Positions 207-1,320 of a DNA stretch of 40,279 nucleotides are shown here, one piece after another. Made by a program: the position numbers and the translations under genes. The DNA lies in IMG/VR virus record IMGVR_UViG_3300007725_000009, positions 1 to 40,279 of that record; one strand, written 5' to 3'. Source of the stretch: a virus. Numbering within the stretch: position 1 is the first letter of the stretch; every line of letters starts with the position of its first letter. Below the pieces are notes generated by a model. That model did no database searches, had not been told where the DNA came from, and was given only the letters and a program-made list of their open reading frames with translations.

Positions 207-314
207 ATGACACGGATAGACAAAGAAGTAATTGCAAATGGTGTGTTCGAACTCATAAGACTCGTAGCATACATTTTAATTTGCATAGCTACAATTAAGT
301 ACATTGCATATTAA
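207..314 (+). CDS. small predicted membrane protein, 35 aa
   Basis: This very short ORF runs from ATG at 207 to TAA at 312-314, with AAGG at 197-200 as a plausible ribosome-binding site. About eleven polar residues (MTRIDKEVIAN) are followed by a single hydrophobic stretch of about 20 residues, so a one-pass inner-membrane peptide is likely. Small membrane peptides of this kind are common in the accessory regions of T4-like phages. I do not recognise the family. Its stop lies just before the 1-kb region that has no genes and is rich in RNA hairpins. Confidence 0.4.
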   Translation: MTRIDKEVIANGVFELIRLVAYILICIATIKYIAY

Positions 315-329
315 CAAAAGGATCCCTGA

Positions 330-384
330 GTCCCCCATGTGTTGGTTGGCGTGAAGAGAAATCTTCCGAGAGGTTGGTGGGGAC
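330..384 (+). other. RNA hairpin domain with GAAA tetraloop
   Basis: The outer helix GTCCCC (330-335) pairs with GGGGAC (379-384). Inside it lies the perfect hairpin GAAGA-GAAA-TCTTC (353-366). That hairpin extends by C350-G368 and G351-C367 with one bulged base. GNRA tetraloops are typical of folded RNAs with tertiary contacts. This is probably the 5' domain of the candidate large RNA. Confidence 0.55.
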
Positions 385-544
385 ACGAGACGAAGATAGA
401 GGTTGGTGTTTTAAAAGGGGTTAATATCCCCAATAGACCTGTGAGTCAACTTCTTATGTCGCAAATGAAGGAACTGAAATCCGTATTGTCGACGGTGGGA
501 CGTTCCGGAAAACAGTCGTTCCGTATGGGTGTGGCCAATCACCC

Positions 545-552
545 TATAAATA
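545..552 (+). promoter_or_regulatory. T4-type late promoter motif TATAAATA inside the RNA region
   Basis: This is an exact match to the T4 late promoter -10 element. Transcription would start near 559. The resulting RNA would cover most of the structured region and could read into the receiver-domain gene at 1321. A chance AT-rich match cannot be excluded, because this 8-mer is expected a few times in 40 kb. Confidence 0.4.
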
Positions 553-831
553 AAGCAGAGTGTAAGCGGTGGGCTTCAAACCCCATTTAAGGAAACAGGT
601 AGACAAATAGCAACACCTCAGTGACATGTTGGCAAGTTAAAGTTAGTCGTAAAACGCCATAGACTATCTACTTAAGATCACTAGGTTGGGATTGGAAGTT
701 GCGATGCTGATGACTCCCATAGGTCAGCACTATATCTCAGGGTCTTAGTTGTTACGATCTCTCAGTTAAAAGCTGTCGTAACGTAAAGCGAAGTCCAATA
801 TGATTAGCTCCTAAGGGTGCCCTGAGGCCAA

Positions 832-934
832 TTTTAGAAAGCAGATTGGGTAAAGCGTGGAAAGTGTGCTAGCCTCCACAGCGAGAAGTACCGATACGGC
901 TTCTCTCAGCCATGGTCCAGTCTGTTTTCTAAAG
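832..934 (+). repeat. RNA module A: 19-bp closing helix with branched interior
   Basis: Positions 833-851 pair continuously with 915-933 (19 base pairs, four of them G-U or U-G). Inside are two hairpins: GTGGA/TCCAC (857-861/875-879), and GAGAAG/CTTCTC (883-888/900-905) with an inner CCG/CGG. The layout suggests a three-way junction with single-stranded AAAGC at the branch. Sequence elements AAAGCAG, GTAAAGCGTGG and CAGTCTGTTTTCTAAA recur in module B at 1230-1307. The downstream helix 931-942/977-988 shares bases with the last pairs of this helix, so the two may exchange. Confidence 0.6.
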
Positions 935-988
935 AGCATCACCCCAGTTAAGTCTGGAGCACATCTGATAAAGTGTGTGGTGCTCTTT
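931..988 (+). other. 12-bp RNA hairpin downstream of module A
   Basis: AAAGAGCATCAC (931-942) pairs with GTGGTGCTCTTT (977-988) over 12 positions with a single U-G pair. The 34-base loop contains an inner CCAG/CTGG stem. The wobble pair again favours the plus strand as the transcript. Confidence 0.55.
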
Positions 989-1193
989 CTAAAGTACATT
1001 GAAAACACAGCAACTAGATCCCCTTACATGGCTGCAGTTTGGGATGGTGTTCTAGGAAAGCGGATCAGTGTACTTTCTAATTCACAGTGATGCTCAAATC
1101 AGGCTCCACTACTCCAGTGTATGGAAGATAGAGAGCCTAAGCCTATCCTGAGAAGAACCTCCTTGTAATTCCTATGTGCACGTAGGTTGATAA

Positions 1194-1227
1194 TACTGGA
1201 TAAGGATCGAAAGGTCGGGAGCCAGTA
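1194..1227 (+). other. RNA hairpin enclosing a second GAAA tetraloop
   Basis: TACTGG (1194-1199) pairs with CCAGTA (1222-1227). Inside, GATC-GAAA-GGTC (1205-1216) forms a short hairpin with one U-G pair and a GAAA loop. It lies just upstream of module B. Confidence 0.5.
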
Positions 1228-1229
1228 AC

Positions 1230-1307
1230 TTTTACAAAGCAGGCTGCGTAAAGCGTGGTAAGGTTCAGCGAGTACGTAGAAGACCACGTACAGTCTGTTT
1301 TCTAAAA
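1230..1307 (+). repeat. RNA module B: diverged copy of module A, next to a start codon
   Basis: Positions 1230-1234 pair with 1303-1307 and 1236-1246 pair with 1291-1301, separated by one C-C mismatch. Compared with module A the helix position is kept while bases change: U846-G920 becomes C1244-G1293, and A845-U921 becomes G1243-U1294. These are compensatory or pairing-neutral changes. Inside is either GTGGT/ACCAC (1255-1259/1283-1287) or GTACGT/ACGTAC (1272-1277/1286-1291); the two are mutually exclusive. The 3' strand ends just before the weak ribosome-binding site (GAGA at 1309-1312) of the receiver-domain gene, so it could act as a 5' leader element. Confidence 0.55.
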
Positions 1308-1320
1308 AGAGAAACCCCTA

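Follow-up and report, generated by a model that had tools for sequence, protein, structure and literature searches.

The window analyzed here, i.e., the whole stretch of 40,279 nucleotides of the virus record IMGVR_UViG_3300007725_000009 (IMG/VR), carries two similar hairpin-forming segments, A (832 to 934) and B (1230 to 1307), and the question raised by this locus is what these segments belong to. A preliminary description, made from the sequence alone, had read them as a repeated functional RNA domain with compensatory changes between its two copies. According to our analysis, A and B represent a single module type that has been duplicated, and they lie in a conserved, phage-borne, multidomain RNA of approximately 1 kb, which contains at least four hairpins in all, has other conserved parts as well, and has modules that are common to several RNAs. 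Stem-closed hairpins of this general kind also occur in permuted tmRNA genes.

The A/B repeat is a genuine duplication, above chance. The matching blocks are collinear and keep their order between the copies, with positions 832 to 864 being 85% identical to 1230 to 1262 (33 nt) and positions 915 to 945 being 81% identical to 1288 to 1318 (31 nt); B is the shorter copy. The top ungapped self-match of positions 300 to 1322 scored 41, whereas 300 dinucleotide shuffles of this region averaged 20 and peaked at 28; for the two-block collinear repeat, the score was 75, and the best of 60 shuffles reached 43. Folded separately, A and B each form a closed hairpin that beats its shuffles (z of −4.8 and −3.0, respectively), with 18 of 18 closing-stem pairs in A and 16 of 17 in B. 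The sequences and coordinates in the preliminary description held exactly, as did the pairs U846-G920, corresponding to C1244-G1293 in B, and A845-U921, corresponding to G1243-U1294. Its claim of compensatory changes held only in part. Because the 3' arm, CAGTCTGTTTTCTAAA, has the same letters in A and B, all the stem changes inside the window are one-sided, i.e., G-U/G-C swaps that are consistent with pairing but not doubly compensatory, and G837-C929 of A becomes a C-C mismatch (C1235/C1302) in B; the term "compensatory" is therefore too strong for the window alone. A third copy proposed at 552 to 572 failed as a module: no CAGTCTG partner was seen for it, it sits within a stretch kept in a related locus, L113 (AAAGCAGAGTGTA.GC.GTGGG), and it overlaps the T4-late-promoter-like TATAAATA. 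The recurrence of GTAAAGCG at 783 likewise found no support as a module. A distal pairing, CGUGG/CCAYG, was found in all four A-type copies and might substitute for the local GUGGA/UCCAC stem predicted by folding. The palindromic loop GCUAGC/UCUAGA of A was considered as a dimer contact and set aside, since there are just two loop variants and a local stem explains them equally well.

The relatives of A provide a stronger test of its stem than the comparison within the window, and they contain true double compensations. The module is present outside this genome, at L012:2606-2768 (94% over 50 nt) and at L113:1545-1651 (−). Copy number, determined by pattern search of the fetched records, is two in this phage (counted via the L008 record, which is identical to the window over the whole RNA), one in L012, and one in L113. 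In the closing stem of L113, G848-C918 is replaced by A-U, G844-C922 by C-G, and G837-C929 by U-A, with pairing kept each time, and the last of these replacements is found in L012 as well. The inner stem GAGAAG/CUUCUC of A is GAUAA/UUAUC in L012. A change in one strand of the closing helix without the other, which the preliminary description had named as grounds for refutation, occurs solely at individual outer positions, namely, at C1235/C1302 in B and at the outermost pairs of the A stem, which are lost in L012 and partly kept in L113. The reading as a repeated RNA domain not due to chance is supported by the shuffles and by the relatives, while "functional" is inferred from the conserved pairing and no function has been shown.

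When positions 300 to 1322 were compared with L113 by BLAST, seven collinear blocks were obtained, running from position 313 to position 1207 of the window, and an eighth match was an A/B cross-match. The homologue in L113 occupies an intergenic gap of approximately 2 kb without conserved genes, where the longest ORF on the same strand has 67 amino acids. In the window, A and two further hairpins, epsilon and module 3, abut at 832 to 1080, and B comes after the conserved 3' domain, as shown in Table 1. In the absence of expression data, we deem the existence of this RNA and its modular makeup very likely.

Table 1. Features of the predicted large noncoding RNA, in positions of the window
Feature	Position	Strand	Support or remark
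Whole large noncoding RNA	313..1310 (ends approximate)	+	L113 collinear blocks; no long ORF with relatives
Conserved 5' domain	313..600	+	Alignment with L113 and L141
TATAAATA, T4-late-promoter-like, within the RNA	545..552	+	10 in window versus 2.7 expected; absent from L113
Conserved block GTTGGCAAGT.AAAGTTA	628..672	+	84% over 45 nt to L113
Hairpin module A	832..934	+	Closing stem 832-849 with 917-934
Hairpin module epsilon, three-way junction	931..992	+	Also a permuted-tmRNA intervening segment
Hairpin module 3	989..1080	+	Closing stem 991-1002 with 1065-1076; matched by stem-pattern search
Conserved 3' domain	1080..1207	+	To L113, 76% over 67 nt, plus a 21-nt block
Hairpin module B	1230..1307	+	Second, shorter copy of A

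In the 5' domain, 18 of 38 consensus pairs are altered on both sides among the window, L113, and L141, compared with 1 to 3 two-sided pairs when the partners were slid by 1 to 3 columns. Because these sequences also served to derive the consensus structure, the test is biased in its favor, and the L141 relative is a fragment at a contig end. Taken by itself, the window sequence of the 5' domain folds no better than its shuffles; the single-sequence folding of the long RNA reaches a z of only about −2 and that of module 3 only −1.3, and a homologue of the module 3 interior was sought and not found. Scanning with a 5'-domain motif returned 28 matches, among which the relatives beyond this phage are L113 and L141 only; L113 is the sole full-length relative, L012 and L141 being partial. 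A relaxed scan with the GTAAAGCGTGG motif gave 25 further loci, chance-like by inspection, and missed L113 because TG was required before the motif. No Rfam family matched the window RNA at gathering or loose thresholds. A T4 late promoter as the main start of the RNA (at approximately 558) was rejected, since TATAAATA is not kept in L113 and the similarity reaches upstream to approximately 313.

The epsilon hairpin was identified by BLAST as a stand-alone element in the Roseobacter podovirus CRP-143 and by pattern search in seven further phage contigs, where it exactly fills the space that separates the CCA end of a circularly permuted tmRNA from its 5' end. The Rfam permuted-tmRNA matches leave it in an unpaired or inserted stretch. 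Across nine sequences, eight of them distinct, 8 of 21 pairs have two-sided changes and paired cells make up 97.6% of the total, and neither the two-sided-pair count nor the paired fraction was reached in any of 500 shuffles. The interior of the hairpin is nearly invariant, and its stem is variable. One Rhodobacteraceae bin has three epsilon hairpins, each inside a permuted tmRNA by sequence, and 197 other Rhodobacteraceae genomes have none; epsilon therefore looks phage-borne, and we infer that the bin likely includes phage contigs. Five of 13 loose epsilon matches (L063 to L067) were discarded as chance-like, and a hammerhead-like reading of the epsilon CUGAUAA was dismissed, no GAAA partner being present in the sequence. 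Forms of tmRNA and the two-piece tmRNA of phages have been treated previously (PMC11915505 and PMC9004378, respectively), and the open-access literature searched yielded no report of a conserved hairpin within the intervening segments of phage tmRNAs. A second, decayed hairpin with a different interior was observed in a permuted-tmRNA intervening segment at L009:5395-5480, and the same one is present in L093.

The closing stems of A, B, epsilon, module 3, and alpha, a hairpin common to L012 and L113, are alike (near AAAGYACAYUR / YARUGURCUUU) and enclose different interiors. A search of viral contigs with one stem form and any interior allowed led, beyond this phage and L012, to L113, to three beta-type permuted tmRNA contigs, to L112/L116, whose matches lie on contigs with tRNA genes, and to L114, which was taken for chance. 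A second stem variant led to L119, near a GOLLD RNA; its match in L118 is coding and was attributed to chance. Over all fetched loci, the stem scan gave 48 matches versus 5 in shuffled copies, a figure that is descriptive only, since related patterns had served to select part of these loci and some of them are duplicates. Besides alpha, L012 and L113 have A, a 3' block, and a segment beta in common, and the order of the blocks differs, beta being 3' to A in L012 but on its 5' side in L113. Alpha also occurs in Kuravirus and Chaseviridae, beta in Vibrio phages and one Mosigvirus, and another L012 segment recurs in Serratia phages. The loop GGCC and the 3' GGCC of alpha become GGUC and GACC in L113, a single change that hints at a possible pseudoknot. 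The alpha carriers are L094, L099, and L100 and the beta carriers L095, L097, L102, and L103; both hairpins are unannotated and conserved, and the coliphage and Vibrio phage groups that carry them have been studied well.

The carriers of the whole or partial RNA are all likely T4-like. The window phage has gp59, gp32, and T4 baseplate genes, L113 has topoisomerase II subunits, L141 has a ribonucleotide reductase and an exonuclease, and L012, as we read its ORFs, has a T4-type topoisomerase. Inspection of gp32 synteny at 50 gp32-bearing loci revealed a nucleotide match to the RNA only in the window's own phage (L013). No tRNA was found in the window; tRNA genes lie near the RNA in L113 and L012. 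Directly 3' of the window RNA is a gene for a receiver-domain-only response regulator (1321 to 1683), followed downstream by one for an ArdC N-terminal-domain protein (2124 to 2387), and the gene downstream of the RNA is a different one in L113.

GOLLD (Rfam RF02032) is a phage-borne RNA of >800 nt, often near tRNA genes, with a conserved and a less conserved part, and ROOL is a large phage RNA of elaborate structure, often near tRNA islands; cages of both have been described (PMC12286853). The window RNA is like GOLLD in being large and phage-borne and in having relatives near tRNA genes, and like ROOL in being a large phage RNA by context, but it matches neither model. The GOLLD covariance model, which covers the conserved 3' region, found nothing in the window at gathering or E values up to 5 and nothing in L012 or L113 at E values up to 2, while the same search detects GOLLD in L105 and L119; the ROOL model had no match in the window, L012, or L113 at any threshold used. 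Since such matches are missing, the structural analogy to GOLLD and ROOL rests on context only. Stem-closed modules of the window type do lie upstream of the L119 GOLLD. The long RNAs of ICP1 (~800 nt) and phage K, which are abundant, have no ORF and no known role, and are likened by their authors to GOLLD/ROOL (PMC7567579, PMC9241854), resemble the window RNA as long phage RNAs without an ORF; phages of these types were not among its BLAST matches, and no direct comparison was made. In comparison with permuted tmRNA (RF04321, RF01849), where epsilon is the intervening segment in several phage contigs, the window has neither a tRNA nor a tmRNA and thus lacks the tRNA-like domain and the tag reading frame that surround the segment there; only the intervening-segment hairpin is common to both. 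Being phage-borne and long, with no ORF and with conserved base pairing, the window RNA shares these features with the giant structured phage RNAs and likely represents a new family of this class, GOLLD/ROOL-like in context only and distinguished by its exchangeable hairpin domains.

In the mechanism that we propose, the locus would encode a large structured noncoding RNA of a T4-like phage, with conserved 5' and 3' domains and a variable set of hairpins between and after them, whose modules have a similar closing stem and different interiors. Comparison shows that such RNAs acquire, lose, and swap modules, and that the swaps also involve permuted-tmRNA intervening segments and stand-alone hairpins of unrelated phages. 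The RNA would be made during infection as an architectural RNA comparable to GOLLD and ROOL; its stems would be helical connectors, interchangeable with one another, through which folded knobs are docked onto a scaffold, and the RNA may conceivably form a multimer or be a platform for a protein. The architectural role, inferred by analogy with the GOLLD/ROOL context and without a known partner, remains slightly on the doubtful side, whereas for the statement as a whole, i.e., a large structured modular RNA of architectural nature, we see the balance as modestly favorable.

The main rival, which remains possible, holds that the stems are processing sites, of the RNase III type or for a tRNA-processing enzyme, which free tRNA, tmRNA, or other RNA pieces and leave the interiors as by-products. 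In its favor, the stem begins directly after a CCA end in the permuted tmRNAs, after a tRNA-Cys in L113, and after the tRNA-Arg-like sequence in L012, and the permuted tmRNA transcript is cleaved into two pieces by processing enzymes (PMC11915505). Against it, A, epsilon, and module 3 abut in the window with nothing between them to release and no tRNA, and a by-product would need no such constancy as that of the epsilon interior, which varies less than its stem. A reading of the hairpins as mobile RNA elements, selfish or neutral, which spread between phages by recombining via their similar stem arms and bring the phage no benefit, seems unlikely: the presence of the hairpins in unrelated phages and positions and the differing block orders of L012 and L113 would fit, but the stem compensation and invariant interiors point to selection on the RNA, and conservation extends to the 5' and 3' domains. 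Finally, the region might be coding or a regulatory leader for the downstream receiver-domain gene, with incidental repeats, as an 83-amino-acid ORF across 339 to 590 and the start of that gene at 1321 could suggest. This reading is very unlikely and already contradicted by the repeat statistics and the compensation, by the different downstream gene in L113, and by the ORF itself, which was rejected as a gene because it has no PHROG or phage relatives and no ORF is listed on the same strand in the matching part of L113.

Returning to the modular RNA, a bolder reading, which is no more than possible, is that phages draw on one shared set of folded RNA modules, which can be exchanged, have a similar, recognizable closing stem, and are plugged into several RNAs. 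The destinations might be giant RNAs, tmRNA intervening segments, and tRNA clusters, with some factor recognizing the stem. If true, RNA would have its own equivalent of the domain shuffling known from proteins. GOLLD and ROOL are conserved, elaborate giant phage RNAs with no known function, and a family of small hairpins that also occur alone or in tmRNA genes makes the puzzle divisible into pieces of 60 to 100 nt, which can be folded, bound, and deleted singly. Moreover, the intervening segments of phage permuted tmRNAs, unstructured in the Rfam models, can contain conserved folded domains.

Several minor observations concern tRNA-like sequences and the surroundings of GOLLD. The tRNA-Arg(TCT)-like sequence at L012:2466-2530 has an anticodon arm, a T-arm, and CCA and leads straight into the alpha hairpin; no matching 5' acceptor strand was found upstream or in the tested downstream variants. 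At L113:2403-2555 (−), a stem-closed module has three T-arm-like hairpins inside (GGTTCGATTCC, GGTTCGAGTCC, and GGTTCAAATCC), which, as read from the sequence, would amount to tRNA mimicry within the large RNA. Positions 2060 to 2480 of L100, the Erwinia phage Faunus, contain several odd tRNA-like units ending in CCA and no annotated genes. In the Ruegeria phage vB_RpoS-V10 (L105:343-1338), GOLLD lies immediately upstream of a permuted tmRNA. The GOLLD match of L119, a 192-kb phage contig, includes a tRNA-Asn, and more tandem hairpins with similar stems are located downstream of it (L119:2870-3060).
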